In this document: positions 7,681-28,637 of the stretch, one piece after another
Layout: each line of letters starts with the position of its first letter
How positions within the stretch are numbered: the stretch's first letter is position 1
NCBI RefSeq assembly: GCF_900196725.1
Contig: NZ_FZMP01000174.1
Location: forward strand, 1 to 37,000
DNA: 37,000 bases
Source: Candidatus Methanoperedens nitratireducens
GTDB lineage: Archaea > Halobacteriota > Methanosarcinia > Methanosarcinales > Methanoperedenaceae
Direction of reading: 5' to 3'
Translations under genes and position numbers: made by a program
Notes under the pieces: generated by a model
The model's database searches: none
The model's input: only the letters and a program-made list of their open reading frames with translations
What the model was told of the DNA's origin: nothing

Positions 7681-7684
7681 AACA

Positions 7685-8866: not shown

Positions 8867-9402
8867 TGTTCAGCCTTGGTATTTTCGTAACATACCTGAT
8901 AGTCGGGATCGGGCTTCTTCGAATCATTGAGCAGTCATCATCGCTGCAGGCGACTATCAGGAATATCCTTGTAGTTCTGATAAGCCTTCTGGGAATATGG
9001 CATGTATACGACGCCTGGCATCTGCGGAAGAATACTGAATCATCCTTTTATACCCCGAAAGCTTTCATCCGCCTCACAGAGAGCGTGACAAAGAATGTAA
9101 GCCTTCCGGCGGCGTTCTTTATCGGGGCTCTTTTCTCTCTCATAAAAGCCCCTTGCGTAGGCGCGGTTTATTTCGTCATCCTTGACATGGTAAGACAGGG
9201 CCAGGGCGCGGGAATAATGTATCTTGCAGCCTACAACCTTGGCGTTGTGCTTCCTGTGCTTATACTGGGCGCAGCTATTGCTTTCGGACTTAACCCTGAA
9301 AAGGTGGAGAATTTCAGGAAAGAAAGAAGATCAGCGCTTCGCCTGATTACAGGGGTGACGCTGCTCGTTATTGCTGTTCTCATGTACGCAGGAATAATTT
9401 AA
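8755..9402 (+). CDS. CcdA/DsbD-type transmembrane thiol-disulfide transporter
   Basis: This frame encodes a six-helix protein of the CcdA (DsbD transmembrane) family, which moves electrons from cytoplasmic thioredoxin to extracytoplasmic thiols. The paired cysteines are present: one in helix 1 (AGFNPCLL, C10) and one in helix 4 (IKAPCVGAVYF, C134). The only in-frame start after the upstream stop at 8680 is GTG 8755. It has no ribosome-binding site and cuts into the first helix; the frame upstream encodes a fitting lead-in (PSVPSVLAVGFLAG). The natural protein may therefore be fused to the thioredoxin-domain lipoprotein through the A7 run at 8720-8726. Its stop overlaps the stop of the convergent DsbA-like gene. 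Confidence 0.85.
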   Translation: MGFLAGFNPCLLAILAFIASVTLATTGRRRNVLLIVLMFSLGIFVTYLIVGIGLLRIIEQSSSLQATIRNILVVLISLLGIWHVYDAWHLRKNTESSFYTPKAFIRLTESVTKNVSLPAAFFIGALFSLIKAPCVGAVYFVILDMVRQGQGAGIMYLAAYNLGVVLPVLILGAAIAFGLNPEKVENFRKERRSALRLITGVTLLVIAVLMYAGII

Positions 9403-12406: not shown

Positions 12407-13300
12407 TCACCCTATAATCTCCGCTCCCTTTCCTATTGTTGTAATGAATGCCTCGCTTTTGACCCGGCTTTCTGTAAAAGCAGTCACCATTGCATGAGCT
12501 ATTTTTTTTCTCTTGTCCATTTCGCATACTGCAAGCATGGTCGGTCCTGAACCGCTTATCGTTATCCCCGCTGCACCTGCTTCAAGCGCGCTTTCTTTGA
12601 CCCGGTCATATCCGGTAATTAGCCATGAGCGTTTTTCCTCGATCACCCTGTTCTCCATACTTTCCCCTATGAGCTTTATATCTCCTTTCATCATGCCGAC
12701 AACCATGGAAGCAGCGCTTCCGATGTTGAAAGAGAGATCTCCAAGAGACAGTCCTTTTGGCAGTATTGCCCGCGCCGCCCGTGTACTCACGATTATATTC
12801 GGATGAACTGCAACGATTCCGATGTTCTCGGGCTTGATAGAGATCACTTTATTTTTACGCACTATCACAAAACCCCCAAGGATGGCAGGAGCTACATTAT
12901 CCGCGTGCGCAACCCCGGATGCTATCTTCTCTCCTTCTGCTGCGATCCGGACAAGCTCTTCGCCGGGAAGCCCGAGAGAGAACATCTCGTTCAGCGCGAA
13001 CGCCACGCCTGCCGCAGGTGCTGCGCTGCTTCCGAGACCGCTTGAAAGAGGAATGCCTCTATGTATTATGATTTTGACGGGTCTGTTGAGAATGGAGGCT
13101 ACAACTCCAGCCGTGTTCCTTTGAGGATCCGTGGGAATGAATTCCGAACCTCTTCCGATAACTTTTATCTCAAGCTTATCACTTTTTTCAACTTCTATTA
13201 TGTCGGCAGGGGCTTCCAAAGCAATGCCGAATACATCAAAACCCGCGCCGAGGTTCGCAGAAGTCGCCGGGACCCTGACCTTAAGGATGTCAATTCCCAT
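12407..13300 (-). CDS. thrB: Homoserine kinase
   Basis: A 297-residue GHMP-family kinase that phosphorylates L-homoserine on the way to threonine. It shows the family start KVRVPATSANLGAGFDVFGI (residues 7-26), the ATP-binding loop PLSSGLGSSAAPAAG (about 85-99) and the C-terminal GITISGSGPTMLAV block. Its ATG overlaps by one base the TAA of the adenosine-specific kinase gene (TAATG), so translation is probably coupled. Gene order and overlap indicate a two-gene operon. Confidence 0.95.
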   Translation of the reverse strand: MGIDILKVRVPATSANLGAGFDVFGIALEAPADIIEVEKSDKLEIKVIGRGSEFIPTDPQRNTAGVVASILNRPVKIIIHRGIPLSSGLGSSAAPAAGVAFALNEMFSLGLPGEELVRIAAEGEKIASGVAHADNVAPAILGGFVIVRKNKVISIKPENIGIVAVHPNIIVSTRAARAILPKGLSLGDLSFNIGSAASMVVGMMKGDIKLIGESMENRVIEEKRSWLITGYDRVKESALEAGAAGITISGSGPTMLAVCEMDKRKKIAHAMVTAFTESRVKSEAFITTIGKGAEIIG

Positions 13301-13781
13301 TATCTCTTATACCCGATGGTCCGCAGGAATGCTCTCCTGTCCTGTACATCCTTTGCGCCCTCGATACCCTTCGGGCTTTCTCCATCTACTACGCCGAGTA
13401 TTCCCCTGCCCTGCCCGGTCTGCGCGATGATAACCTCAACAGGATTGGCAGTAGCGCAGTAGATACTGCAAACTTCCTGAAGGTTCTTTATCGCGTTCAG
13501 CACATTTATCGGATAGGCGTTCCTCATGAATATAATGAAGCTGTGCCCGCATCCGAGAGCCAGCGCATTATCTTGCGCAGCTTTTTCCAGTTCTTCATCA
13601 TTGCCCTCGCTCCTGACAAGGCACTTCCCGGAAGCTTCGCAGAAGCCAGCCCGAATTTTATTCCCGGAACCGAGCTTATAAGAGCTTCGTACAGGTCCTC
13701 CGCGCTTTTGATGAAATGCGTCTGACCGAGTATCAGGTTCGTTTCCGGCGGCGAATCGATTTTTACAGGGATTAATTCCAT
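13300..13781 (-). pseudogene. Adenosine-specific kinase (PF04008) with a one-base frameshift
   Basis: Two minus-strand frames together encode a full-length protein of about 160 residues. The front ([20 protein letters not shown]...GIKFGLA) starts at ATG 13781 behind an excellent ribosome-binding site (GGGGAGGT). The back ([20 protein letters not shown]...[20 protein letters not shown]...) lies in the other frame. Adding one base between 13644 and 13645 restores [14 protein letters not shown] without a gap. This is a conserved archaeal family described as adenosine-specific kinase, possibly in modified nucleoside metabolism. The rest of both frames looks well conserved, so a sequencing deletion is at least as likely as a real mutation. 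It is coupled to thrB. Confidence 0.85.
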
Positions 13782-13811
13782 ACGTACCTCCCCTTTTAAG
13801 ATAGATTTTTT

Positions 13812-13826
13812 GGTATTTATATACAA
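13812..13826 (-). promoter_or_regulatory. TATA-like promoter of the adenosine kinase-thrB operon
   Basis: On the minus strand TTGTATATAAATACC lies about 30-45 bp before the ATG at 13781. That is the expected spacing for an archaeal promoter with a short leader containing the ribosome-binding site. Confidence 0.5.
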
Positions 13827-13850
13827 CTACTGTGTATCATGTAATTGACG

Positions 13851-14225
13851 TTACTTAATTTCCTTGTCATTTGAGTCGGCAAGCTTTTTCCAGAATCTTA
13901 TAAACTTATCGCAGCAGTCTTCTTTCTTAATGTCGACCGAAAGCTCACCGTCTTTAAAACTCACCGTAGCTTCACGGACAATACAGCGATAGTACTTCTC
14001 CTCGTTACCCGCGTAACTTATAACCGTCTTGACATGCTGAATCAACCCGGATTTCTCAAGAAGTTTAAGTCTCCTGTACACCGTTGATAGAGGTGTGTTA
14101 AGCTCACTGCTCAATTCGAGGGCTGAGTGCTCCTTTTTTGTGGTCAGATTTAGTATCTCTCTTATGCACTTATCTGCCAGATATTCAATAATCGCATCTG
14201 CGTTTTTCGTCGTTTTTGTGTCCAT
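13851..14225 (-). CDS. Winged-helix (ArsR-like) transcriptional regulator
   Basis: A 124-residue DNA-binding protein. Residues 14-67 form a winged helix with the pattern ADKCIREILNLTTKKEHSAL, then ELSSELNTPLSTVYRRLKLL, then EKSGLIQHVKT. The second half (YYRCIVREATVSFKDGELSV) is a beta-rich sensor or dimer part, and CC lies near residues 104-105 (KEDCCDKF). It is transcribed divergently from the multicopper oxidase genes across a 0.5-kb gap that carries an inverted repeat, so it is a candidate regulator of them. The effector is unknown; the cysteines could bind metal. Confidence 0.8.
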   Translation of the reverse strand: MDTKTTKNADAIIEYLADKCIREILNLTTKKEHSALELSSELNTPLSTVYRRLKLLEKSGLIQHVKTVISYAGNEEKYYRCIVREATVSFKDGELSVDIKKEDCCDKFIRFWKKLADSNDKEIK

Positions 14226-14746
14226 TCTGATGCACTAACTAGCTTTTTTTCAAAGCGATTAGAAATGCAGTAAATCCAAATAAGTCAAATATCTCGTCAA
14301 ACCTCCACATCTCTTACATTGTTATAAAAAAAAATGTCAATCACAACAGAACTCATGATAAAATGATTGACACCAAGAATAATGTCTCTCAACATGTTTT
14401 TCACCGAAAGTAGAAGCTTATTAGCAATATTCATTATAGCTGGATATAAACCTTCCGATTAAACACTCACAAATATTTTATGCCGGGTACAAGAAAAGCT
14501 GTAACACTATAATCATAACGCTCATCGTCAATGTTTGGAGATGGCTATTGTGGTATATATATTGCTTCGTATATACATGACGGTGGAGTTAGTGATGAAT
14601 TCTTAAAAAGCAATAGAAGAGAATTCAAAATTGTTAGTGCTCACATTAAAAGGAGTGAAAAAAGAAGTGTGCGTACCTGGAAATAACATTAGCAGTAGCT
14701 ATCTATAAAAAAAAATTAGCAGAGAAAATGGACAGGAGTGGAAACT
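14226..14746. other. Divergent promoter region between regulator and multicopper oxidase genes
   Basis: No convincing gene in this 521-bp A/T-rich stretch. It has several T- and A-runs, an inverted repeat (14553-14576), GAATTC repeated at 14597 and 14619, and a possible 17-codon leader starting GTG at about 14660 after AAAAGGA. A minus-strand frame entering from the right is a shadow of the oxidase gene. Confidence 0.5.
14553..14576. promoter_or_regulatory. Inverted repeat in the regulator-oxidase gap
   Basis: Arms GTATATA and TATATAC are separated by 10 bases, midway between the divergent genes and about 170 bp before the oxidase ATG. It could be an operator for the winged-helix regulator, although A/T alternation can also arise by chance. 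Confidence 0.35.
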
Positions 14747-16165
14747 ATGAAAATGAACAGACGAAATTTTGTTAAATACGGCATCGGAGTAGGGGCAGCT
14801 TTGGTCATTGGAAGCCGGATTCCCGGATTTCAGATAAATGAAGCCCTTGCCGCGGTACAGACGTTGAACATCACCATTACAGACGCGCTTAAGAATATGG
14901 TGACCCATAACACCATAAACCCCGCCCAATGTTATTTCTGGATTTACAAAATGAGCGCGGATGGTACAGATATCCCTGCTGAAGTTCCCGGGCCCAATAT
15001 CTTTACCACCCAGGGAGATACTGTCTCGATCAGCATAAAGAATGATCTGGATGAGCCTCACGCGTTTTCCATCCCCGGTATATTTGACAGCGGTCCGATC
15101 GCTCCGGGTAAAACACTGGTGACGTCGTTTACAGCCCTGAAATCGGGCGCTTTCCTGTACTATGATAACCTGAACGCGCCTGTTAACCGTGTGATGGGCC
15201 TCCACGGCGCCTTCATCGTCATGCCCAGAGAGCCGGTTTTGGGGCATAAATTTACCCCCTACGACAATCCAACGCCAGGGGTACAGCAACTGTTTGACGA
15301 CTTCGGCAGCAGCGCCCACTATCCCGGCCTCGCCTGGCAAGAGGGTGATCTGGATCCGGACAGCTTTGCTCCGCCATTTCGGCAATACATATGGCTCCTG
15401 CACCAGGCAAGCCCGAATCTGTTTGCCGAAGTGGGGAATTATACGCCTGGTGAGAATTACCCTGCAGCCCAGTTTATGCAAAAGTTCTTAAGGGATCCGT
15501 TCGATGCGGTTAAGCCGACTACCAATGCCATACCCCAGTACTTCACCATCAACGGCCAGTCAGGGCATTTCTCGCATAATAAGCCCTTCATCTGCCCGAA
15601 CCTCCGCGCGGGTGAACCCTGCGTTATCCACGTTTTGAATGCCGGGCTGTGGACCCATTCCATGCACCTCCACGCCAACCACTTCTACGTGACCAGCAAA
15701 AACGGCGTGGTCTCGAACAATCCCATATGGATAGACGTCTACAACATAGAACCTATGGACATGGTTGATTACACAGTGCCCTACATGAGACCGCCGGATG
15801 TTGGCAACGTCAGGGGGATCGGGATGCCGGATACACCGCTTACCAGTCTCAAAGGCAAGCCGGTCTGGCCGCCATGGGAGGAGATTGGCATGTTTATGCC
15901 GAAACTAGGGACCCTGGCTGACCCGCTGAATCCGGACTCGGTTGAGATTTCGGTGCAGCTTTCGCCCCTTTGCTATCCCATGCACGACCATTCCGAGCCG
16001 AGCCAGACCTCTCAGGGCGGCAACTATAACCTCGGCATGATCTCAGGGATGAATTTCACAGGAGACCGGAACGTGCTGGACGCGCTGGGGGGACCCACGA
16101 CCTTCCCGAACGCCCCGAATGTTTTTGGTCCGGAAAAAACAGGGCCTGCTGCAGGACCGGAGTAG
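14747..16165 (+). CDS. Tat-exported multicopper-oxidase-like protein A
   Basis: A protein of 472 residues from ATG 14747, chosen because CAGGAGTGG precedes it at good spacing. The N-terminus carries a twin-arginine signal (NRRNFVKYGIGVGAALVIG), implying folded, cofactor-loaded export. Cupredoxin features are PAEVPGPNIFTTQGDTVSIS in the first half, HSMHLHANHF (H304, H307, H309, H312) and CYPMHDHSEPSQTSQGGNYN (C409, H413, H415). The HDH motif stands where classical enzymes have HCH, so no type-1 copper cysteine is visible at that site. Such proteins usually work with a domain carrying HxHG and HCH, which the next gene supplies. The gap to that gene is 12 bases, indicating an operon. Confidence 0.85.
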   Translation: MKMNRRNFVKYGIGVGAALVIGSRIPGFQINEALAAVQTLNITITDALKNMVTHNTINPAQCYFWIYKMSADGTDIPAEVPGPNIFTTQGDTVSISIKNDLDEPHAFSIPGIFDSGPIAPGKTLVTSFTALKSGAFLYYDNLNAPVNRVMGLHGAFIVMPREPVLGHKFTPYDNPTPGVQQLFDDFGSSAHYPGLAWQEGDLDPDSFAPPFRQYIWLLHQASPNLFAEVGNYTPGENYPAAQFMQKFLRDPFDAVKPTTNAIPQYFTINGQSGHFSHNKPFICPNLRAGEPCVIHVLNAGLWTHSMHLHANHFYVTSKNGVVSNNPIWIDVYNIEPMDMVDYTVPYMRPPDVGNVRGIGMPDTPLTSLKGKPVWPPWEEIGMFMPKLGTLADPLNPDSVEISVQLSPLCYPMHDHSEPSQTSQGGNYNLGMISGMNFTGDRNVLDALGGPTTFPNAPNVFGPEKTGPAAGPE

Positions 16166-16177
16166 GAGGGATATAAT

Positions 16178-17890
16178 ATGTCAATTACAACACCAGCCTA
16201 TACAATCCTCCGTAAGTCAGTTGACGGGGATGAAGGGGAATGGGTCAAGATGTTCGACCCGCCCAAAGAAAGCCCTGCCACGCCCGAACGCCTGGCGCCG
16301 ACCAATCCCGTGCCTGAAGTTATGGCGGCTGCCGGTTTTCAGAAAAAGCCCGGTAAACTCCATACGGTCAAGCGAGAGCTGCTAAAAAACTTTAACATCG
16401 ATACATGGGATAAAAAGAAAAAATTGAAGGTTTTTTCCATCGCGGATGGTGAAAATCCTGCTGCCTCAGGCGGAACATGGCCGGGGGCAACGATTCGCGT
16501 ACCCCGCGGGGCAGTCTTCCATTGCAAAACCAGTGGACAGTCGCCTCCACCGCACACCATTCACTGGCACGGTCTTGAGCCTTCGCCCATCAACGATGGT
16601 GTGGGGCACTGCTCAATGGAGATAGGCGACTATACCTATCAGCTCCAGCCAAACTTCATAGGCACCTATTTCGACCACTGCCACCGCAACACAGTCCAGC
16701 ACTTTGAATTCGGGCTATACGAGCTGTTCCTGATAGATCCGCCGGATGCTTTCTTTGCTTCCATTGCGGCAACAAACCCTGATGGCACCGTCCGTCTTAA
16801 GAACACTATCCCGATAGGAGCCTGTAGAGATGGAAAGAGAAGAACTGCTGCGAACGTCGCTGAAGTCCTGCTTCCGGATGAGAGTGTTGCGGATTATTCT
16901 GCAATGTTTCCCGGGTTCAACTCCAAGCCGATTGATTCTCCGGACCCCTTAGGTCAGTATCCTGCCAATCCACATGCCATGACAGTTCCTTACAACGTGG
17001 AAGCCCTATGGGTCTTAGATGACCGCGACTCTGTCTGGAGCGAACTGGCTTCTAACGCAAAAGCCACATACCCGCGTCACGGCACCGATCCAGGACACAA
17101 CGACCATTTCCATAACAATGCTGATGAACTTGCCGATCCCGACGATTTCTTTGCTTTCAACGACTTTAACGCAGATTACTGGTTTGTCACGGGCGTTCCG
17201 GTACCGGCATATAAGGGAGGCACAGCTCCCATCCCATCAGATCTGGTCATCCCGCCGGCGTTGAACAGCGGCGTCTCCGGGTCGCAGGTCTCGATCACTG
17301 CTAATCTGGGCGAGACGATCCTTGTCCGGTGCCTTGATGCTGCTTACAACTGCACCACCATCAGGTTCCCGCTGGATGTAGTGATCATCGCCTGGGACGG
17401 ACGCGCTTTGGGAGTGCCGCCTTTCGGGAAGTACAATAAGGCATATCTCGTTCCTGCCGGTGACCCCATTCATATCAGTGTAGCCCGGCGCTTTGATGCG
17501 CTGATCAATGCCCCAATGACTCCCATTGACTCCTTCGCCACGGTGGACTTCATCGATACCCGCGGTCAAGTCCCGGGCGAAACCGAGAGCGTCCTTGTGA
17601 CCGCCCGGATCCCCATTCATATAGGGGATTTCGGCTGGATATCTGGGACGGTAACAACCAGGGGCAAGGACAGTGCCCCGCTTGCAGGAGTCAAAATGAC
17701 CCTGACCGGCCCTGCAGACAGGACAGTGTGGACGGATGCCTGGGGTAACTACATCATTCCAAGACTGGCAGATGGCATCTATACGGTTACACCTTCTCTT
17801 GACGGTTATGAATTTGCACCGCCAAGCAAAAATGTAGCCTATCTCAACAAAAATGTGAGTGGAGTAAATTTCGTAGGGAATAAAATATGA
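16178..17890 (+). CDS. Multicopper-oxidase-like protein B with C-terminal carboxypeptidase-regulatory-like domain
   Basis: A 570-residue protein starting at ATG after GGAGGG. It has no signal peptide of its own. The first cupredoxin part holds HTIHWHGLEP (H126, H129, H131), NDGVGHCSMEIG and DHCHRNTVQHFEFGLYE (H167, C168, H169, H175, L180). These fit type-1 and trinuclear copper ligands with a non-coordinating axial leucine. The middle is a long second beta-rich part. Residues from about 485 (GWISGTVTTRGKDSAPLAGV...) form a carboxypeptidase-regulatory/PEGA-like beta domain often used for surface contacts. Copper motifs here complement those in protein A, so the pair may assemble as one split oxidase, with B carried out by A's Tat signal. 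That model is inference. Confidence 0.85.
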   Translation: MSITTPAYTILRKSVDGDEGEWVKMFDPPKESPATPERLAPTNPVPEVMAAAGFQKKPGKLHTVKRELLKNFNIDTWDKKKKLKVFSIADGENPAASGGTWPGATIRVPRGAVFHCKTSGQSPPPHTIHWHGLEPSPINDGVGHCSMEIGDYTYQLQPNFIGTYFDHCHRNTVQHFEFGLYELFLIDPPDAFFASIAATNPDGTVRLKNTIPIGACRDGKRRTAANVAEVLLPDESVADYSAMFPGFNSKPIDSPDPLGQYPANPHAMTVPYNVEALWVLDDRDSVWSELASNAKATYPRHGTDPGHNDHFHNNADELADPDDFFAFNDFNADYWFVTGVPVPAYKGGTAPIPSDLVIPPALNSGVSGSQVSITANLGETILVRCLDAAYNCTTIRFPLDVVIIAWDGRALGVPPFGKYNKAYLVPAGDPIHISVARRFDALINAPMTPIDSFATVDFIDTRGQVPGETESVLVTARIPIHIGDFGWISGTVTTRGKDSAPLAGVKMTLTGPADRTVWTDAWGNYIIPRLADGIYTVTPSLDGYEFAPPSKNVAYLNKNVSGVNFVGNKI

Positions 17891-17900
17891 ACAAATCCGT

Positions 17901-17932
17901 AGGGGAAAGCCTTGGCCTTCCCTGATTTTTTT
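17901..17932 (+). terminator. Terminator after the multicopper oxidase pair
   Basis: AGGGGAAAGCC and GGCCTTCCCT form an imperfect stem with a two-base loop, followed by GA and seven T. It lies directly after the stop codon at 17890. Confidence 0.7.
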
Positions 17933-18042
17933 GTATGATATGAATTGAATGGGGTCAATACGAGAGCTTCAAATCACCCTTGATAGACCACTTCTTCACT
18001 TTGTATTCGATCCCATTTTAAGTTATCTGAATAGAAATTTAA

Positions 18043-21000
18043 ATGGAGTGCATGAAAAACATGGGAATAAATATATCACGGAAAGGTTCTGAATCAATAG
18101 TAGAAAAAAATACAGCCCGTAAATCATCCGCGAAGTTAAGAGAATTTACAAGTTTTTTCTTGCTTTTTATCGTCGCAGGAATGATTTTTGGAAGCACGAT
18201 AACGATAAGTTCGGCAGTATCGCCGGTCGATGTGTGTGTCGCCGGCGGTGCAGAGAGAACGATACACTACGATGTAGCAGCCATCGACGTCAACTTACCA
18301 GTCAACGGCTGGGGAGATTTCAACCCCCAGGCTATGATGTATGCCCTCGATGACGCGCTCATAATTCCAAATGTATTCACGCTGCCCAATGTGACGCAAA
18401 TAGAGGACCCGAATTTCAAGCTCTACGACACGACTGACATGAGCGTGCCAGACAAGATGCAGCCACTTGTGCTAAGAGCAAACAAGGGCGACTGCGTTGA
18501 AGTAAAACTGACAAACAGGCTCGATACGATCAATGATACAATCCAGGCCCCGTTTACTTCGGCAAGCGGAGCTGCGAGTCCCATAAATGCTCTTAATGAT
18601 CAGAGAAAGGTGGGCATGCAGATCAGTGGTCTGGCAGTTGATCCTGCAACATCGGATGGCGCAAACATAGGCTTTAACCCGGATACAACGGTTGCACCCG
18701 GAGCTTCTGTAACCTACAGATGGTTTGCCAACAGGACTGGAAGCTTCATGTTCCGTGACTTCTCAAACGCGCAGTTCCCGCAGGATACGATTAACAAAGG
18801 ACTCTACGGGATGGTCGTGGTCGAAGAAGAGGGCTCGGTGTGGTTTGACTCAATATCCGGCAGAAACTTCCTGAAGATGAAGCCCGGTAAGCAGAACAGT
18901 ATTGACATCAATGACCTTGAGCAGCAGGGAACGGATGAGATTGGTTTGCCCAGGTACCTTGGCGTAGGTGCAAGCATATTCGCGGTCGTCCACCAGCTTC
19001 CAGGAAGACCGCTTCCAAAGGGAGCGATGCTGTATGAGAACGTGAGCGGGAACGACTATAGGAGCTATGTGATGATTATGCAGGACGAGATGGAAGGCAT
19101 AGTCGGACCTGTTGAATGGAACAATGACGGCAGTATAAAGAAATTCGGTACGCCCTTTTTCCCTGCCACGGGACTGGCTGATTCGACCCTGCTTTTGAAC
19201 TACAAGTCAGAGCCTCTCAGAAACAGGATGGCTGCATGGTTGAGGCACAGGGGTATTATACCAACGCCAAACTCAGCGCCTGTTACAGGCACGCCTCAGA
19301 CGGTTATTCTGCCCGATGGCAAGACGATCCTGCCCGGCGATGACTTCTGCAATGGTGGAGACTTCACGGTGGAAAATATGAACTACAAGTTCTTCCCATG
19401 CGAGGGAGAGGAATCCCACCTGCAATCATGGCCGTTCGGAGACCCGGCACCGGCACTTCCCAGAGCATACTGGGGAGACCCGGTAGTATTTTACGCAGCC
19501 ACTGCATCAACACATGAAACACATACATACCACCAGCATACCCACAGGTGGTTCCATGACCCTGACCAGGCGAATATCAGCCTTCTGCCGCTGCCTGAAA
19601 ACCCGACCCAGAAGAGTAGCAGGCTTGATGTGCAGGGAATAGGGCCCGGCGAGGTATTCAAGATAGTGCTGGAGCAGGGAGCAGGCTCGCAGCTAGGGAC
19701 AGCAGGCGACTCGATCATGCACTGCCATCTCTACCCGCACTTCGCAGGTGGCTTATGGAGCGCTTTCAGGGTGTTTGACAAGCTGAGAGTAAACTTCACT
19801 GACCCAACGAACATCAATTCTAACATGCAGGATAGCACACCACTGTTATATCCGGATGGAACCCAGGAAGCGGTTCTTGTACCTCTGCCAGCCAAGGAGG
19901 CGCTTGTTGGCGGTATTACCGGTCCACGAATAGCGCCGGCAGCTCCAAGGGGCATGCCTAACCGCACAGCCGGATTACCGACCGCTGCTCAGCCGGGCTA
20001 TCCCAACTTCGTGGCGGGCAAGTTCGGGCAGAAGGCTCTTCAGCCGCCAATGTTCGTAATAAATCTGACCGATGGTACTCCTGCAGGAGACAGGGCAGTG
20101 CCCACACAGCTTGAGACAGACGCTTCATACGATGGCATCAGACCGGGTGTCACTCTTGTTGACCCGTGCAAAGGTCCGAATGGCGAGTTTGTGCGCCCCG
20201 GTAACCCCACTCTAAAGCCTGACAGGATATATGAGCCGTTCGCAATCCAGGTGCCCTTGCTCCTGAACGCCAAAGGCGGGTTCTTCAATCCTGAACAAAG
20301 AGCATACGTCGAGAAAGAGCAAGTAGCCGAGGTGAGAAAAGACCCGAGCAAACTCAAGCCGTACTCCTTCAGGGCAAACATAGGAGACTGTGTTGAGGTG
20401 CACGGCACAAATGCGCTTCAGCCGGACCCCCAGACGCCTACCCTGGGAGTGAACGACGGCATATTCCACGGCAGCACCATCACGACCGAGGTCTCAAACC
20501 ATGTTCACATAATAAGGTTTGACCAGCTCGGCTCAGACGGCACCTCTGTCAACTGGAACTATGACATAAGCCAGAGGGCAGGCGAAACAGGAGCCTACAG
20601 ATGGTTCGTGGACATCAATGGGAGAACGATGTTCAGCCATGACCACCAGTTCCCGACCAGCCACCAGCAGGGCGGTCTGTGGTCTGCCTTCATCAATGAG
20701 CCCATGAATTCCACCTACTTCAAGCCCGATGGAACGAATCTAGGGCCTACCATGAGTGCATCGACCTACAGCCTCACAAACAAGACGTATCTGATTAACC
20801 AGACTAAGGGTGTAGGGACATCGGCAAACATCCAGGTAGCACCCCTGACCACAACTAACAAGAAAGGGGGAATAAGCGGCGGCGGCTTCCAGGGTTTCAG
20901 GGAGTTCGTGGTGCATTACGGCGACTTCACGCCAGCATTCGTGGCTGACCCTGCGACACTTAAGGCAGCATTTGCAGAATTGGGTCAGGGCACAGGTAAG

Positions 21001-23118
21001 CTTAATGAGAATCCATTCAGGCAGGATCTAGCCGTTTTCAACCCTGCTTTGAGGACAATGCCCTACAACCCGCCCTTCTTCCCGGATGACTTCGGGGCAG
21101 ACCAGGGCATTACGACGCTTAACTACAGGGTTGAGCCATTCCAGGCAAGGATGGACCTGACAAGCCCGAACGCGACTCAGAGAGAGCCGGCCTATGTCTT
21201 CAGCTCAAGAGTATGGGGCGACCCGGAGACAGAGGTGTTCAGGGCGTACTTCGGAGACCCGGTAGTGGTACGCCTGATGGACGGAGCGCATGAGGAGCAC
21301 CATGTCTTTGAGCTGCACGGTCATCGCTGGCTGCATCAGCCTTCTGATCCTGACAGCTTCCTTACAGACAACCAGGCATCCAATATCGGTGAGTGGTTCA
21401 ACTACGAACTGCAAGGAAATAAGGACAGGATAGTCCCCGGGCAGTTTGACAAGGAAACAAGTTTCATCATTGCCGGTCTGCCAGGTGACTACCTCTTTGG
21501 CTCATCTCCAACGTCTGACCTCTGGAACGGCGACTGGGGAATCTTCAGGGTAGAGAACGGCTTCACGCCAACGCTGAAGGTGCTGCCGGGCCAGCCGCAG
21601 CCTCTGCCCATTCCTGAATTGAAACTGCTGGGTCACAACACAGATCCGGGAGCATCGGTTCCGAAAATCAATTCGGCTGACGCAGCTGCGAACATGGCAT
21701 GCCCCTCGGGTGCACCTCGCAGGATATACAGCGTAGTAGCTATCCAGGCGCTCATGGAGTACAACAGCAAGTATGGAGAAAGTGATCCCTTTTCCCTGAT
21801 GTACGTTTTGGAAGGGGACGACGTGCGGATAGCGAATGGATTAAAGAAGGATCTGGAACCTCTTGTGATACGTGCAAACCAGGGCGACTGCATTGTTGTC
21901 ACATTGAAGAATAAACTGCCGGATCTGACGGCTCTTACCGCCGGCAAGTCTGTTAAATTCCCGGATAGTACCCTTTCGACAACATCGCTTGACCCGAAAA
22001 CGCAGCAGCACACTGGAGATGCACAGATGCCTGCAATAGTAACAGGACTGCCGATAGGCGGTACACGCGATCCTCAAGCACAGTTCGTATTCGCGAAGTG
22101 GCCCATGGGAAGGCGCGTAAGCCTGCACCCGCACCTTGTCAAAGAGACGGCAGCCTATGGCGATGGAGCTACAGTTGGCTTCATGCGAGACCAGACAATA
22201 GGTCCGGGAGAGAGCGTCAACTACTTCTGGTATGCAGACAAGGAGCTTGGCGCAACGCTGCTTGACGACTACGGAGACCTGAGGAGCCACAGGCACCACG
22301 GTCTGTTCGGTGCTCTCATCATCGAGCCCAGCGGGTCAAAATACCTTGATCCCAAAGACCTGTCAAAGGAGATTAAGAGCGGGACAAGCGCTGTGATACA
22401 GTTACCGAACGGCAGGCAGTTCAGGGAGTTCGTGCCGCTCTTCGCGGATGGGCTCAACCTGAGGCAGAACGGCGTCCTGATTCCAGATATCCTCGGACCC
22501 TTTGACCCTGAAGAAGTACAGCACCAGCCGTGCTCGCCGCCAGGTGCAAGATGCGGTGATGTGGAGGATCAGGGAGAGTATGGTATAAACTACAGGACAG
22601 AGAGGCTCATGAATAGAGTACCTCTGGTTCTTGGTCCCCTCGGCGTGCCAGGTGAGGAACTCTTCAGCCCGGATGCATTCAAGGCATTCAGTTCTAAGGC
22701 CGCCCCGAACGGCTTCGGCGACCCTGATACACCTGTCTTTGAGGCATTCCTTGGAGACCCGATAGTGTTCCGGCCCCTGAGGCCCGCGGACGTGGCAAGG
22801 GTCCGTGCCATAGGAATCACTGGACACGTCTGGCAGCATGAGCCAAAAGACCAGGGCACAAACATCGTGAATGTAGAGGGAAGCTTCGGTGTAGGCAAGT
22901 CCTTTAACTTCTGGCCCATAGGCGGAGCAGGAGGAGAGCAGAAGCAACCCGGCGACTACATGTACAATGACAGAATAAACAGCCCGGACGACACCGGTCT
23001 GCCTGGAGGGTCATGGGGACTGTTAAGGGTGCGTCCTGTTGCAGGAGCACCTGCAACCACAATCAAGCAACTGACCAGACCTGCAACAGCGGCAGACCTG
23101 CCGCAGATCGGACCATAG
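18043..23118 (+). CDS. Giant six-cupredoxin multicopper-oxidase-like protein
   Basis: A 1,691-residue exported protein. The signal segment (FFLLFIVAGMIFGSTITISS) ends near residue 60. Three repeats of about 550 residues each contain two cupredoxin domains. An 'a' domain has (V/F/I)RANxGDC(V/I)xV, and a 'b' domain has GDPVVFxxx. Visible ligands: domain 2 HETHTYHQHTHRW (H491-H501) and MHCHLYPHFAGGLW (H560, C561, H562, H566, L571); domain 3 NHVH (H820, H822) and HDHQFPTSH (H866, H868, H874, Cys replaced by Asp); domain 4 HEEHHVFELHGH (H1083-H1094) without an HCH block; domain 5 LHPHLVK (H1362, H1364) and SHRHHG (H1416-H1419); domain 6 GHVWQHE (H1595) only. Domain 1 shows no ligands. The layout recalls ceruloplasmin, MnxG-like manganese oxidases and Geobacter OmpB-type proteins, but it is longer. 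Starts at 18043, 18052 and 18061 are possible. Confidence 0.88.
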   Translation: MECMKNMGINISRKGSESIVEKNTARKSSAKLREFTSFFLLFIVAGMIFGSTITISSAVSPVDVCVAGGAERTIHYDVAAIDVNLPVNGWGDFNPQAMMYALDDALIIPNVFTLPNVTQIEDPNFKLYDTTDMSVPDKMQPLVLRANKGDCVEVKLTNRLDTINDTIQAPFTSASGAASPINALNDQRKVGMQISGLAVDPATSDGANIGFNPDTTVAPGASVTYRWFANRTGSFMFRDFSNAQFPQDTINKGLYGMVVVEEEGSVWFDSISGRNFLKMKPGKQNSIDINDLEQQGTDEIGLPRYLGVGASIFAVVHQLPGRPLPKGAMLYENVSGNDYRSYVMIMQDEMEGIVGPVEWNNDGSIKKFGTPFFPATGLADSTLLLNYKSEPLRNRMAAWLRHRGIIPTPNSAPVTGTPQTVILPDGKTILPGDDFCNGGDFTVENMNYKFFPCEGEESHLQSWPFGDPAPALPRAYWGDPVVFYAATASTHETHTYHQHTHRWFHDPDQANISLLPLPENPTQKSSRLDVQGIGPGEVFKIVLEQGAGSQLGTAGDSIMHCHLYPHFAGGLWSAFRVFDKLRVNFTDPTNINSNMQDSTPLLYPDGTQEAVLVPLPAKEALVGGITGPRIAPAAPRGMPNRTAGLPTAAQPGYPNFVAGKFGQKALQPPMFVINLTDGTPAGDRAVPTQLETDASYDGIRPGVTLVDPCKGPNGEFVRPGNPTLKPDRIYEPFAIQVPLLLNAKGGFFNPEQRAYVEKEQVAEVRKDPSKLKPYSFRANIGDCVEVHGTNALQPDPQTPTLGVNDGIFHGSTITTEVSNHVHIIRFDQLGSDGTSVNWNYDISQRAGETGAYRWFVDINGRTMFSHDHQFPTSHQQGGLWSAFINEPMNSTYFKPDGTNLGPTMSASTYSLTNKTYLINQTKGVGTSANIQVAPLTTTNKKGGISGGGFQGFREFVVHYGDFTPAFVADPATLKAAFAELGQGTGKLNENPFRQDLAVFNPALRTMPYNPPFFPDDFGADQGITTLNYRVEPFQARMDLTSPNATQREPAYVFSSRVWGDPETEVFRAYFGDPVVVRLMDGAHEEHHVFELHGHRWLHQPSDPDSFLTDNQASNIGEWFNYELQGNKDRIVPGQFDKETSFIIAGLPGDYLFGSSPTSDLWNGDWGIFRVENGFTPTLKVLPGQPQPLPIPELKLLGHNTDPGASVPKINSADAAANMACPSGAPRRIYSVVAIQALMEYNSKYGESDPFSLMYVLEGDDVRIANGLKKDLEPLVIRANQGDCIVVTLKNKLPDLTALTAGKSVKFPDSTLSTTSLDPKTQQHTGDAQMPAIVTGLPIGGTRDPQAQFVFAKWPMGRRVSLHPHLVKETAAYGDGATVGFMRDQTIGPGESVNYFWYADKELGATLLDDYGDLRSHRHHGLFGALIIEPSGSKYLDPKDLSKEIKSGTSAVIQLPNGRQFREFVPLFADGLNLRQNGVLIPDILGPFDPEEVQHQPCSPPGARCGDVEDQGEYGINYRTERLMNRVPLVLGPLGVPGEELFSPDAFKAFSSKAAPNGFGDPDTPVFEAFLGDPIVFRPLRPADVARVRAIGITGHVWQHEPKDQGTNIVNVEGSFGVGKSFNFWPIGGAGGEQKQPGDYMYNDRINSPDDTGLPGGSWGLLRVRPVAGAPATTIKQLTRPATAADLPQIGP

Positions 23119-23128
23119 ACATAGATAG

Positions 23129-23163
23129 ACAGGGCCTTCCTGGCCCTGTAATCCATTTTTTTA
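23129..23163 (+). terminator. Strong hairpin and T-tract between giant oxidase and propeller gene
   Basis: Perfect 8-bp arms ACAGGGCC and GGCCCTGT around TTCCT are followed by a T-run ending 13 bases before the next ATG. It may act as a partial terminator that lowers downstream expression. Confidence 0.75.
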
Positions 23164-23175
23164 AAGAGTGGTAAA

Positions 23176-25062
23176 ATGGTAACAGGTCAAAGAAAATATA
23201 AAGATAATAAAGTAGAAAGCAAAATCGCAGTTGGGGGAAAACGTAAACAGCGCATAAAGCTATCTATCGTTATTCCAATCATAGCTCTAGCTATCCTGTC
23301 GGCACTGATATTCATCAACGGCAGAGGTACATCATCGGGTGAGATAGCAGTAGAGTTCACAGCGCAGCTCTTAGAAGGTGATAACAGCAGCACGCAGGGA
23401 GAAAACACTCTTGTGGCAAGAAAAGAAGCGCTTCTCACGTTCAGGCTCAAAGACAACAAGACCGGGCAGCTTGTCTATGGTCTTAGCCCTGAGATCGGCT
23501 TCTACCCGGACGAAAATGTAGAGATAAGCCTTGCAAAAGTCCAGCTCTTTGTACTCAACAGCGAGAGAGGAACAATCGAAGTGCTGGACACCTTTGGGGG
23601 TTATGACCCAAGACCAGCATCGGTAAAAGGCATGGGGACTATGACCTCAAAGGTCATCAGGCTTAAAGGCTCGCCCAACCAGAAAGTCACAGACATGGTG
23701 GCAGGCAGGTACGGTGATTACCTCTATATCACCCTTCCAGGAGAAAATCAGGTAGCGATTGTGAACACAATGACCCATGAAGTGCTCAAATATATCGATG
23801 CCGGCTCTATGCCAAGCAGGATGTTCCTTCAGCCCCGGAGCAAGTTCCTCTGGGTCAGTAACGAAGGGTTCGGGGGTGGCGTCGGCATAATAGACACTGT
23901 GAACAACACCCTGGCAAAAACCATAGAGACCGGAAAAGGTTATCATCAGGTAGCATTTTCTCCTGAGTTTGCCTATGTAACTAACAGCTATTACAATACG
24001 GTTTCGGTGATCCGCCTCAGCGACCTTGCAAAGCTTGAGGACATAAAAGTCCGGGAGACGCCTTACGGGATCGATTACTCAAATGCAAGCGGCGAAGTTT
24101 ATGTCACAAATGTCCTTTCGGGGACGGTTACTGTGATAGATGCATCAACCCGTAGCATCAAAAAGCATATTCCATTGAGCATGGGTATAGAGCTAATTAA
24201 ATTCTCGCCTGATGGGCGCAGGGGAGTTGTCCTTGATAAGCATGCCAACACCGCCTATATAATCGATGCAGCAACAAGCAGCATAATCAAGACCGTGAAA
24301 ACAGGAGAAGCACCCGGTGCTGTGGGCTTTATTGAAGAATACGCCCTCGTGCGCAACACCTACAGCAATGATGTGACATATATCAGCATGGATAACCCCG
24401 ATGTATCAAATAATGAGCTTGTAGGAGGCGCGCCCCCCCTGAACGTAACACTGCGCAGCCTTCAGACCACCCCGTATGGCGATGAGGTGGTAATAACAAG
24501 TCCTGAAGATACCAGGATATACTTCATGCACAAGATGAACGGCGAGCCGATGGTCATGAATTCTGCCACCGTGGAATACGGCTCAAACGCAGTAGCTATT
24601 GTCGAAAATAAACTGCATGAAACGAGCCCGGGCACATACCAGCAGTACATCATACTTGACAGGGAAGGTTCATACGACGTAGAATTCAGGTCCGGAAAAA
24701 TCAATGCTACTTTCAAAATAGAAGTACTGCCTGACCGGACAACAGGGTTCCAGACTGCTGCGCTCTTCAATAAGACCTTCATAACAGGTGGAACATCAAC
24801 ACTTCAGTACCGGATAACGAGTAGAAAAACAGGGCTTTCTGAAGAAAACCTCACCGACCTGATATTTGTTGTTATCAAACCGGGCAAGGGAGCATGGACA
24901 AAACGATTACCTTCAAGGCATATCGGCAACGGTACGTATGAGGCAAAAATAGCTTTTCCTGAGGAAGGCGAATACATTGTCACTCTGGCTTCGGGCACGC
25001 TGAGCAGCAGGGGATACGAGACAGCGTACGATTACGTTAAGGTTAAAAATGCGACTACGTGA
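23176..25062 (+). CDS. Membrane-anchored YVTN-type beta-propeller protein
   Basis: A 628-residue protein with a basic cytoplasmic start, one transmembrane anchor (about residues 29-48, IKLSIVIPIIALAILSALIF) and an external part. Residues 55-135 look like an Ig/YtkA-like beta domain. From about 165 to 420 a propeller carries repeated YVTN/YNCE blades (YLYITLPGENQVAIVNTMTH, FLWVSNEGFGGGVGIIDTV, YVTNSYYNTVSVIRL, VYVTNVLSGTVTVIDASTR). Two more beta domains follow (about 450-620). Propellers of this type bind partners or small molecules at the surface, and no catalytic residues are obvious. Its position behind the giant oxidase suggests a scaffold or partner. The stop overlaps the GTG of a heme-motif mini-ORF. 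Confidence 0.88.
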   Translation: MVTGQRKYKDNKVESKIAVGGKRKQRIKLSIVIPIIALAILSALIFINGRGTSSGEIAVEFTAQLLEGDNSSTQGENTLVARKEALLTFRLKDNKTGQLVYGLSPEIGFYPDENVEISLAKVQLFVLNSERGTIEVLDTFGGYDPRPASVKGMGTMTSKVIRLKGSPNQKVTDMVAGRYGDYLYITLPGENQVAIVNTMTHEVLKYIDAGSMPSRMFLQPRSKFLWVSNEGFGGGVGIIDTVNNTLAKTIETGKGYHQVAFSPEFAYVTNSYYNTVSVIRLSDLAKLEDIKVRETPYGIDYSNASGEVYVTNVLSGTVTVIDASTRSIKKHIPLSMGIELIKFSPDGRRGVVLDKHANTAYIIDAATSSIIKTVKTGEAPGAVGFIEEYALVRNTYSNDVTYISMDNPDVSNNELVGGAPPLNVTLRSLQTTPYGDEVVITSPEDTRIYFMHKMNGEPMVMNSATVEYGSNAVAIVENKLHETSPGTYQQYIILDREGSYDVEFRSGKINATFKIEVLPDRTTGFQTAALFNKTFITGGTSTLQYRITSRKTGLSEENLTDLIFVVIKPGKGAWTKRLPSRHIGNGTYEAKIAFPEEGEYIVTLASGTLSSRGYETAYDYVKVKNATT

Positions 25063-25148
25063 ACATATACTATTGTAATGGCTGTCATGTCGATGGACCG
25101 CATGCATGCGGTTCTGAGGAACATGAAATTAATATGAAAGGAGTGTAA
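25059..25148 (+). CDS. Mini-ORF with a c-type heme motif, overlapping the propeller stop
   Basis: A GTG at 25059 overlaps the propeller's TGA, and the frame runs 29 codons to TAA at 25146-25148. The product reads IYYCNGCHVDGPHACGSEEH in its core and contains a perfect CxxCH heme-attachment motif plus a third cysteine and further histidines. It has no signal peptide or transmembrane segment, so it could only receive heme if joined to the propeller by a -1 frameshift, which would append it to the external C-terminus. It could also be the end of a decayed cytochrome gene or a chance frame. Low confidence as a stand-alone gene. Confidence 0.3.
   Translation: MNIYYCNGCHVDGPHACGSEEHEINMKGV
25097..25112. 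promoter_or_regulatory. Perfect 16-bp palindrome
   Basis: ACCGCATGCATGCGGT is a perfect palindrome inside the mini-ORF, about 115 bp before the next gene. Without a spacer it is more like a protein-binding site than an RNA hairpin. There is no T-tract behind it. Confidence 0.4.
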
Positions 25149-25226
25149 AATAAACGAAAAGGTGTTAGAAAAATAAAACCAAATGAGGTTAAAGAATTTA
25201 GAAAAGAAAAGAGAGGAATGAATAAT

Positions 25227-26606
25227 ATGAATAAGAAAAAAACAACTAAAATATTAGCTGCATATATAACCGTATTTATGGTGACTGCGGCATTTGTAAT
25301 GCCAGCATCAGTGGCTCAGCCGCAAAATGCTGCAACCCCATTCACAGCGGGTCCCGTGAACCCCAAAAACGGCGGCGCCCTGTGGGTACAAGACTCGAAC
25401 GGGCTGACGCTGCAATTATGCCTGGATCCCTCCCTATGTTTCTTTGATCCAGTGGTTCCTGGAAACCTTTACTCTGAGAGGATCGGCTTCGGGCCTGAGG
25501 CGTTCTGGTGGCTCGGTGAGTCCAGTATAAAGAACAAAGGATTTTCTGCTCTCTTAGTGATGGCAACCGAGTTTGCCTGGGCTACCGAGGAGCCCGCCCC
25601 AGGGGACCAGTTTCCCTTCACTCGCCTGCGCTTCCGCCTGGATCCTCCGGCAGACGGTACATACACCATCACTCATCCATACGGCGTGGACGTTTTTGAG
25701 GGGACCAAGGGTGTACGCATCTTCGTAAGCCACGACATACCGTTTACGGCTCCAGGCCAGAATCAGGGCAAGATCGGGCCGTTCCTGACCAGGGTGTATG
25801 TGCCGCCTGATGGCCCTGCCCCGGGATTCATCTCCAAAGGCTTTGATGATGTCGGCCCTGTCACTGGCAGCCCCTTAGGTACTAACTACTTCGAAGTGAG
25901 GGCAGTGGATCCGAAAGGTCTCCCCACCATCGACCTGGATAATAACATCAACGGTGTGCAAAGTGTTGTAAGGACAAATGACTTCTCTGTCATGGGCCAG
26001 ATAGCGACCCGCCATGGTGTGCAGGTAAACAGGGCGGATTACGACTTGGATCCCCTGGACCCGGGCATCGCGGTGTTCGCCTCAACGTCGAATTCGACTC
26101 CCCTGGAGACCATCAATGTGAGCGGAGCCGGTCTTACACCAACCGCGATGGCGGCAGGTCCTTCAGATCCAACCGGGGTCTGGAAGAGATACTTTACTTT
26201 CATCGTGAACAACGTTCCTCCCCCGTCAATCAACGTAACAAATACGTTGGATCCCGCAGAGGACCCGGCATGTCTGACAGGTGACGCTTTTGGTCCGTCA
26301 TGTGAGAGCACAGTGGTATACCCCTTGATTGATAGGGTGACCATCACGAAAGCTTACTTCTACAGGAGTACAGGGGAGTTGGAGATATTAGCGTCTTCAA
26401 CCGACCCCGGCGCCACGCTGACGGCATTCGCAGATGATGGGACAGAGCTAGACGTCCTGACAGGTGGGAGTCTTAAGATATTTAATGTCGCCGTACCTCC
26501 GGCTTACGTCACAGTTAAATCCTCTTTCAGAGGTGCGGACACAGAACCAGTCGAAGTGGGCTTCTGCGAACTTGCGGGTAGTAGCAATGTGTGTTTGCGG
26601 AAATAA
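25227..26606 (+). CDS. Secreted protein of unknown function with three cysteine pairs
   Basis: A protein of 459 residues from ATG 25227. This start is chosen because GAGAGGA lies about 10 bases before it; ATG 25218 is too close to that site. A Sec signal (ILAAYITVFMVTAAFVMPAS) precedes AQPQ. The mature start PVNPKNGGALWVQDSNGLTL is followed by the pair LCLDPSLC. Two more pairs occur near the end (CLTGDAFGPSC and CELAGSSNVC), suggesting disulfides. No catalytic motif is seen, and the fold looks beta-rich. I do not recognise a named family. It follows the propeller gene and ends at its own terminator, so it is probably part of the same surface system. Confidence 0.8.
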   Translation: MNKKKTTKILAAYITVFMVTAAFVMPASVAQPQNAATPFTAGPVNPKNGGALWVQDSNGLTLQLCLDPSLCFFDPVVPGNLYSERIGFGPEAFWWLGESSIKNKGFSALLVMATEFAWATEEPAPGDQFPFTRLRFRLDPPADGTYTITHPYGVDVFEGTKGVRIFVSHDIPFTAPGQNQGKIGPFLTRVYVPPDGPAPGFISKGFDDVGPVTGSPLGTNYFEVRAVDPKGLPTIDLDNNINGVQSVVRTNDFSVMGQIATRHGVQVNRADYDLDPLDPGIAVFASTSNSTPLETINVSGAGLTPTAMAAGPSDPTGVWKRYFTFIVNNVPPPSINVTNTLDPAEDPACLTGDAFGPSCESTVVYPLIDRVTITKAYFYRSTGELEILASSTDPGATLTAFADDGTELDVLTGGSLKIFNVAVPPAYVTVKSSFRGADTEPVEVGFCELAGSSNVCLRK

Positions 26607-26622
26607 AATTTGAACGAAAAAA

Positions 26623-26650
26623 GTGGCGATTTAATCGCCACTATATTTTA
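26623..26650 (+). terminator. Terminator after the cysteine-paired secreted protein
   Basis: Perfect 8-bp arms GTGGCGAT and ATCGCCAC around TTA, preceded by an A-run and followed by TATATTTTATT. Confidence 0.75.
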
Positions 26651-27337
26651 TTCTTATATTTCATCTACGTGCCTGACAACTCAGCTAAGAGCAAAGGTGT
26701 ATGGCGGCTGACGTTCAACAGCGCTGCGAAGACTGTAGGCAGCCCGTTTTTACTTGCACCGACCGCAGGCTTGGGGGGAACAGACCAACAGCTACAGCGC
26801 TTGATTCTAGCGGCAACCTCTACGTAGGGTTTTAAGACCGGCAATATCGTCAAGATCACGAACCCGACCGGGAACTCACAGACGGTGGCTACATTTGGCC
26901 AATCTTTTGACGGTCGAGGCATCTCCGGTCTTGCCTTTGCAGGCTCAGACCTGTATCTGGCAGAGAAAGCGGCAGTTACCAGGATAACAGGGGGAGGGAA
27001 TGCAGTCCCGACATTCATCGATGCGCTTGCGCCGACTGCAATCGTCTCGGATGGCGTAAACTGGATATTCGTTGCTGACACGCCGATAGCTAACACCAAT
27101 ATCCTGAGATACGGTCTCAGTCCTAATACCCGGGATATCTATGCTAACATTGGCGTGTTGCCGGATGGTACAACAAAGCCATTCCAGTTCGTCTCGGGTC
27201 TTGCGGTTGATTCAATGGCAAACCTGTACATAGGCGATGAATACTGTCAAAACCTGAGAGGCAAGGACCGACCTGCCGGGGCAATACGATCCCGTGATAC
27301 CGGGATTGTAAAAACCCGACTGCTGCAACAAATATGA
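26651..27337 (+). pseudogene. Broken NHL/SMP-30-like beta-propeller remnant
   Basis: Propeller-like sequence begins abruptly behind the terminator (YVPDNSAKSKGVWRLTFNSA) without a start codon or signal peptide. It continues in another frame (ALDSSGNLYVGF), then in a third (KTGNIVKITNPTGNSQTVAT, SGLAFAGSDLYLAEKAAVTR, GLAVDSMANLYIGDE). One missing base near 26791 and a frame change in the T-run at 26830-26833 join the pieces. The 5' part is missing, so this is probably a truncated gene, although the internal frameshifts could be sequence errors. Function before decay: a secreted propeller like others found near such oxidases. Confidence 0.7.
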
Positions 27338-27358
27338 CGGAAAAAATCAGAGATCAGG

Positions 27359-27379
27359 TGTCGGTATAACCTGCCGACA
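27359..27379. promoter_or_regulatory. Inverted repeat before bioY
   Basis: Arms TGTCGG and CCGACA are 9 bases apart, just before the bioY-like sequence. It could be the terminator stem of the upstream remnant or an operator. It does not resemble the BirA-type site found before bioB. Confidence 0.25.
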
Positions 27380-27394
27380 TCGTAATATTTTTTA

Positions 27395-28637
<1,243 letters not shown>

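Follow-up and report, generated by a model that had tools for sequence, protein, structure and literature searches.

The mnxG operon of Pseudomonas putida GB-1 comprises, in this order, mnxG, a YVTN beta-propeller gene, two SCO1 genes and the genes for a cytochrome c-domain protein and SurA (PMC11409713). In Bacillus, MnxG (PDB 9bxa) belongs to the Mnx complex together with MnxE and MnxF, and MnxG-like six-domain proteins of haloarchaea have already been described (PMC3600357). Mn(IV)-reducing species of Methanoperedens are on record (PMC8280799, PMC10386581), and for Baikal moxA and mnxG were reported mainly in metagenome-assembled genomes of Methylomirabilota, Nitrospirota and Gammaproteobacteria (PMC10386581). 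Here we describe a block of copper-oxidase genes of Candidatus Methanoperedens nitratireducens, located in a 37,000-nucleotide stretch of DNA (contig NZ_FZMP01000174.1, positions 1 to 37,000; hereafter the window) and comprising the five intact genes mcoA, mcoB, mnxG, propY and p462 (Table 1). Methanoperedens is recognised as a reducer of Mn(IV) rather than a producer; as M. nitroreducens and two relatives carry mnxG beside a propeller gene, whether these archaea oxidise Mn(II) too can be put directly to the test. No description of a Methanoperedens MnxG was found in the accessible parts of the literature covered, with subscription papers and preprints outside its scope, and the M. nitroreducens gene may already bear a multicopper-oxidase name.

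The block is a real genomic unit of about 13.6 kb, located between an adenosine-specific-kinase gene and bioY, and consists of two modules that also occur apart: mnxG with propY, and mcoA with mcoB and p462. The best explanation is that this Methanoperedens acquired, between two sets of housekeeping genes, an island of surface copper oxidases; in this explanation, taken in all its parts, our confidence is evenly poised. The original prediction, made from the sequence alone, had proposed a surface redox locus with a regulator, a split and a giant oxidase, propellers, a heme peptide and a disulfide-rich protein, and it was sound in outline. The divergent winged-helix regulator and the one-strand run of genes (five on the plus strand, 14738-26606) were confirmed, and three of the five genes encode multicopper-oxidase proteins. 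Not supported were the heme peptide, the second propeller as an intact gene, and membership of the redox genes next door.

Table 1. Features of the copper-oxidase block, in window coordinates.
Feature	Position	Strand	Length (residues)	Description
Insertion extent	13823..27398			homology to G005 ceases at both ends
Winged-helix regulator (ArsR/HTH_20-like)	13851..14225	-	124	multicopy genus family; invariant YYRC cysteine
mcoA	14738..16165	+	475	Tat motif; first cupredoxin-like half without copper ligands, second with HxxHxHxNH and HxH (trinuclear half-site)
mcoB	16178..17890	+	570	HTIHWHG and HCHx5HxxxG in the first half (type-1 copper, other trinuclear half-site); no signal peptide by eye
mnxG	18043..23118	+	1691	MnxG-family multicopper oxidase; motifs at residues 491-499, 560-566, 820-822 and 866-868 (trinuclear and type-1)
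propY	23176..25062	+	628	hydrophobic anchor at the N-terminus (by eye); YVTN/YncE propeller; C-terminal domain YtkA-like; mnxG partner gene
p462	25218..26606	+		probably exported; three close pairs of cysteines (six in all); homologs adjoin genes for oxidases or cytochromes
Second propeller-like gene fragment (by eye)	26665..27337	+		frame-shifted; longest piece is the open reading frame 26885-27337

The giant oxidase is of a kind with which some bacteria convert dissolved manganese to a solid mineral. It is homologous along its length to the six-domain MnxG (E 3.1e-145 against the MnxG of 9bxa); the stretches 194-273, 452-893, 1005-1292 and 1353-1664 are significant singly and residues 79-160 match weakly. 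The ligand motifs of the type-1 copper and trinuclear sites of domains 2 and 3 (HxxHxH, HCHxxxH, HxH and HxH) are retained, and all four are present in 17 of the 18 rows of the family alignment, the window included, with only Pseudonocardia lacking two. By analogy with MnxG, the window protein would share its domain count and the position of its trinuclear cluster. The Bacillus complex offers the best solved-structure match and the same copper motifs in domains 2 and 3, but the window oxidase is longer (1691 against 1227 residues), carries an N-terminal leader and has no MnxE/MnxF relatives found beside it. Scored with NCBIfam NF041487, it reached 241 bits, compared to 1625 for M. nitroreducens (G014), 1410 for Indioceanicola, 667 for Sphingobium and 333 for Priestia; none of the five reaches the curated cut-off (3100 bits), and the gene was therefore named MnxG-family rather than assigned to the equivalog.

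Directly after mnxG lies propY, which matches YNCE and TIGR02276 and ends in a YtkA-like part. Its structural model has a good propeller core, with a mean predicted local distance difference test score (pLDDT) of just 55.7, and YVTN/YncE propellers as top Foldseek matches, adding little beyond the sequence. An identity as the lactonase-type N2O reductase L-NosZ was considered and rejected (NCBIfam NF052460, 55.6 bits against a cut-off of 700). The same tandem is found in M. nitroreducens (locus L015), in a further genome of the genus, G024 (L016), and in Indioceanicola. An MnxG-family oxidase followed by a YVTN propeller gene is also what the locus shares, in gene order, with the P. putida operon (PMC11409713); the block differs in its archaeal host, in that no SCO, cytochrome or SurA gene was seen, and in an oxidase outside the MnxG clade of propeller-bearing bacterial rows. 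The haloarchaeal proteins are likewise archaeal members of the MnxG family, but they form a separate clade, and none of the haloarchaeal loci examined gave a match to the propY profile.

MnxG matched 30 plasmid records, of which 12 loci were examined. Three of these have a gene for a propeller of 590-616 residues downstream of mnxG, immediately after it in Indioceanicola and Sphingobium and one small gene further in Roseomonas; SCO follows in all three, with cytochrome c too in Sphingobium and Roseomonas and two SCO-like genes in Indioceanicola. For the other nine loci the propY profile gave no match (gene tables were also checked in the seven annotated ones), and in Priestia a propeller lactonase gene is located about 4.7 kb after mnxG. 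Profile-profile comparison of the three bacterial with the three archaeal propeller genes gave a probability of 96.7% (E 3.5e-10, 493 columns); by itself, the propY profile recovers just the Indioceanicola homolog among the bacterial propellers.

The second oxidase is encoded by mcoA and mcoB. In phmmer, the first half of McoB aligns with domain 1 of a two-domain multicopper oxidase (PDB 2zwn), and McoA aligns weakly with both domains, its ligand-bearing half with domain 2. A type-1 copper site with one trinuclear half-site in one domain and the other half-site in a second, as in two-domain oxidases, is found here across two paralogous chains, each with one ligand-free half, and not on one polypeptide. 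The two genes are separate, mcoB having its own Shine-Dalgarno-like AGGAGG right after the mcoA stop; McoB has no ligands in its second half and bears an extra CarboxypepD_reg domain. Five pairs were examined: that of the window, three from one Indioceanicola strain (L048, L051 and L093) and one from Arthrobacter (L049). In all five, McoA has HxxHxHxNH and HxH-x-E-x-SQT and lacks HCHx5H, while McoB has HTIHWHG and HCHx5HxxxG and lacks the McoA motif set. Because this complementary loss of half-sites holds in every pair, McoA and McoB probably form one heteromer, probably also exported jointly. Chains A and B of Indioceanicola align with each other (24% identity over 212-243 residues, E 3e-8 to 2e-9), which makes McoA and McoB paralogs. 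A twin-arginine translocation (Tat) motif was judged present in four of the five McoA proteins, the pattern occurring in Arthrobacter McoA as well, there without a hydrophobic stretch; it is absent from all five McoB proteins, of which the Arthrobacter call starts inside the domain. McoA and McoB look like a clear-cut example of duplicated enzymes whose complementary losses ended in an obligate two-chain oxidase, and a narrow, strict literature query found no description of a two-chain two-domain multicopper oxidase with a twin-arginine signal.

Read-through from mcoA into mcoB, which share one frame with a single TAG between them, was considered and rejected, since AGGAGG follows the stop, seven bases before the ATG, and since the Indioceanicola pairs are likewise two genes. 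By eye, the Arthrobacter McoA frame seems to continue into a McoB-like N-terminus, and the protein is maybe one chain there. Across the phylum, the McoB profile matched 56 of 392 genomes at E 1e-12, end to end in the window alone; the other matches are confined to some 90-165 positions surrounding the copper site, which any two-domain oxidase would be expected to match. The McoA query matched in three of 34 relatives, at full length in the window alone.

The predicted disulfide-rich protein corresponds to p462, whose sequence has the cysteine pairs. This protein has no Pfam or NCBIfam match, and a structure prediction made without an alignment was uninformative (mean pLDDT 37.9). It was found in the window's genome alone among the 34 relatives, and alone among the 392 phylum genomes; homologs are present in three of 72,556 plasmid records, namely in Arthrobacter, where the homolog comes after mcoB, in Skermanella, where an oxidase gene and one for SCO precede it, and on Indioceanicola plasmid 1, where it lies tail to tail with a CXXCH-bearing gene. 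The Arthrobacter homology rests on BLAST (BLASTP E 4e-24), as phmmer did not return it. In Arthrobacter, mcoA, mcoB and p462 recur together, adjoined by an Nramp transporter and a metal-dependent regulator. Indioceanicola plasmid 1 carries relatives of all five block genes (mnxG-propY, two mcoAB pairs and p462), at about 887-1073 kb and spread over about 190 kb. The gene neighbourhoods on which the idea of a single surface redox system was to be judged thus favour it in part: the second module is joined in Arthrobacter, all five relatives share one plasmid and the first module has a metal-oxidation family with its partner gene, but the two modules are separate elsewhere.

The separate occurrence of the modules would also suit the view that there is no system, and that independently acquired accessory oxidases, partly decaying, came to lie next to each other by chance in a metagenome contig. 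The second of the predicted propellers, at 26.6-27.3 kb, is indeed a frame-shifted fragment, leaving propY as the only intact one, and the genome (3.52 Mb in 250 contigs, completeness 100) has a contamination of 5.18%. We consider this view improbable, as it has to account for the recurrences in Arthrobacter and Indioceanicola, and as both flanks are syntenic with genus mates and close relatives of propY and of the regulator occur in the genus, which makes contamination unlikely. The longest piece of the second propeller gave no Pfam, NCBIfam or plasmid match.

That the block is an insertion can be read from genomes of the genus. At the same site in G007, BioD and the adenosine-specific-kinase gene are 153 bp apart and the block is absent, the gene order common to G007 and the window being BioW, a dehydrogenase-like gene, BioF, BioD, adenosine-specific kinase, homoserine kinase, di-heme peroxidase, DsbA and thioredoxin/CcdA; the flank genes were named from Pfam/NCBIfam matches or by eye. 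As the peroxidase and Dsb genes stand in this order in G007 without the block, they are not members of it. In G005, the nearest relative by homoserine kinase (91% identity), homology ends at window positions 13822 on one side and 27399 on the other, and mnxG gave no match. BioY adjoins BioD in three of the seven relatives' BioD loci examined (G005, G001 and G026) and was therefore assigned to the older flanking sequence. Both G005 contigs (L055 at its end, L056 at its start) terminate at the block site in sequence that by eye resembles an insertion element, so that insertions may recur here; words from these contig ends do not occur in the window. For mobile-element ends, no inverted repeat was found in 13700-14800, and 26550-27500 holds just one hairpin (26617-26647). 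The G+C content at third codon positions is 0.60-0.64 in mnxG and mcoA compared to 0.42-0.60 in core genes; these ranges touch and are not decisive for a foreign origin.

Multicopper oxidases with a type-1 copper and a trinuclear site oxidise a metal or organic donor in an outer-sphere reaction while O2 is reduced. At the cell surface, the island would most likely oxidise Mn(II), or else Fe(II) or Cu(I), in an O2-dependent manner, both the substrate and O2 as oxidant being suggested by sequence comparison. Mn(II) is favoured because of the MnxG family and its partner gene, which lend partial support to the surface metal-redox interpretation of the original prediction, and the Nramp gene beside the Arthrobacter pair hints in the same direction. 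The six-domain MnxG would take electrons singly from the metal ion (most likely Mn(II), possibly Fe(II) or Cu(I)) via type-1 copper and reduce O2 at the trinuclear cluster between domains 2 and 3, with its partner PropY anchored in the membrane. In the second oxidase, McoA would bring the Tat signal and one trinuclear half, and McoB, in which no signal of its own was seen, the type-1 copper and the other half, probably being exported with McoA; p462 would be a surface partner. For Methanoperedens the gain could be O2 removal, a supply of Mn(III/IV) or metal defence.

Several findings weigh against this function, beginning with the NF041487 cut-off that the oxidase does not reach. Methanoperedens is known as an anaerobe, so that the O2 needed would be rare. 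The mnxG-propY pair is itself rare, being present in three of the 31 genus genomes (that of the window, M. nitroreducens and G024), and in the latter two loci it stands alone, without the second module, which speaks against one system with this exact set. An SCO chaperone was not found by motif scan, and MnxE/MnxF relatives were not found by BLAST or phmmer, at the window, L015 or L016; the queries for the latter were two small genes before Priestia mnxG, taken as MnxE/F from their position. Downstream of mnxG, no SCO1/SenC or cytochrome c genes were seen in the block or at L015 and L016, and small MnxE/MnxF-like genes before it were likewise not seen. In addition, the HCH of McoA in the other four pairs is HDH in the window.

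Copper-resistance genes near some MnxG relatives are a further such point, and they bear on an alternative in which the island serves oxygen and metal defence, an anaerobe being protected by surface oxidases that burn trace O2 and oxidise Cu(I) or Fe(II), with no mineral formed. On plasmids, relatives of MnxG lie near CopC/CopD in Rubrobacter, CopC in Priestia, a metal ATPase in Hymenobacter and CusA/CzcA in Microvirga, and McoA and McoB match CueO/CopA models, although far under the cut-offs (34 of 525 bits and less). We judge this alternative unlikely, though it deserves some weight: in family and partner gene the oxidase matches the manganese-oxidase operon, no copper transporter or chaperone was recognised in the block, and the adjoining peroxidase is present in G007 without it.

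The regulator belongs to a family with 34 further matches at E 1e-10, at least one of them in 20 of the 31 genus genomes, the window's own included. Eight of the 34 paralogs were examined, picked from the best matches and the own-genome paralogs rather than at random, and the CC pair highlighted in the original prediction is not common to them. An open reading frame with 3-29 CXXCH motifs lies within 1 kb of five of the eight paralogs, two of whose loci (L086 and L087) look orthologous, compared to one of 146 background genes from ten loci; with at least one CXXCH, the counts are six of eight and 19 of 146. The family, often found beside multiheme cytochromes, may control extracellular electron transfer in general, and by analogy the island would probably be switched together with such genes. 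At the loci L085-L089 the adjoining multiheme cytochrome genes include one with 29 CXXCH motifs.

This company of cytochromes at five of eight loci fits a further alternative, in which the surface copper proteins work in reverse, as a relay that takes electrons from multiheme cytochromes while methane is oxidised and hands them on to Mn(IV) or Fe(III); Methanoperedens species do reduce Mn(IV) and Fe(III) (PMC8280799). A mere relay would not need the full O2-reducing trinuclear motif sets kept in MnxG and, jointly, in McoA and McoB, mnxG is unmatched in 28 of the 31 genus genomes, some of them incomplete, and none of the five block genes has an in-frame CXXCH. We therefore hold the relay to be decidedly improbable. 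The heme peptide of the original prediction is lost on the same count: CXXCH patterns number 10 in the window against 2.5 expected in shuffles, and the one at 25074, tried as a heme peptide, lies in a stretch of about 28 codons with a GTG-only start and no counterpart in two relatives, and was rejected.

If O2-dependent Mn(II) oxidation is the function, a bolder reading is that the archaeon makes its own mineral electron acceptor. At an oxic edge, the surface MnxG would spend O2 on turning Mn(II) into a cell-bound Mn(III/IV) mineral, so that a toxic gas is removed and its oxidising power is stored as a solid, later to be breathed with methane via multiheme cytochromes, and the second oxidase would be of a new kind in which two chains share one active site. 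We regard this as distinctly unlikely. Oxidation of Mn(II) by these archaea, if it occurs, would close a manganese cycle inside one methanotroph and put trace oxygen to use.

The history of the first module differs between its two genes. Propellers of the window and of M. nitroreducens and G024 are 66-67% identical (whole-alignment count; 65% by BLASTP), while the window MnxG is only 37% identical to either counterpart by the same count; BLASTP puts its identity to the Priestia protein at 31.7% and to that of M. nitroreducens at 27.8%. In the tree, the MnxG proteins of M. nitroreducens and G024 are sisters of that of Indioceanicola (100/100), inside a 100/100 clade with the propeller-bearing rows of Sphingobium and Roseomonas; the window MnxG falls outside it, on a long branch joined with Nonomuraea at 86/89, and belongs to no starred set. 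Constraining the three archaeal rows to one group lowers the log-likelihood by 219 units (approximately unbiased test, p-AU 4.7e-68), for a group chosen after the tree was seen and with long branches in play; the letter make-up is odd in 10 of the 18 rows, those of the window and M. nitroreducens included. The oxidase was probably exchanged beside a kept propeller partner, and replacement of the mature oxidase in place would be the simplest reading. Over its first 51 residues, the window MnxG matches the leader of G024 (score 59, reached in 0 of 1000 shuffles), compared to scores of 16-31 for the other 16 rows (M. nitroreducens 31, 108 of 1000 shuffles), a match that is suggestive only, as hydrophobic leaders look alike and M. 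nitroreducens has no match. Such an exchange beside a conserved propeller shows which part of the mnxG operon is held constant.

Among 99 relatives, mnxG is present in three (window, M. nitroreducens and G024), and propY, by its A1 profile, in two of 34. A loose first step across the phylum matched mnxG in five of 392 genomes, M. nitroreducens and G024 not being among the matches; the four besides the window group with the haloarchaeal rows in the tree, apart from G400. No match to MnxG was found in phages. G024 MnxG (L016, 8679-14102) has an extra C-terminal domain, by eye with SdrD/SpaA-like repeats, without a counterpart in M. nitroreducens or the window. In both L015 and L016, mnxG-propY adjoins polyhydroxyalkanoate-synthesis-like genes, which we take to be those of a thiolase, a reductase and PhaC/PhaE-like proteins.

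The division of the locus into units by terminators was not confirmed: terminator-like hairpins are present at 23129 and 26622, but the window has 17 in total against 13.5 (sd 4.2) in shuffles. Rfam and tRNA scans of the window were empty. Apparent frameshifts were noted in the thioredoxin/CcdA fusion (7637-9402), the adenosine-specific kinase (13280-13826), the second propeller (26665-27337), BioY (27390-27927) and BioF (28638-29794); as several conserved genes are affected, assembly indels are likely, rather than decay. Finally, a match to ethylbenzene dehydrogenase (PF09459) is located at 3322-4443, just upstream of an ammonium transporter.

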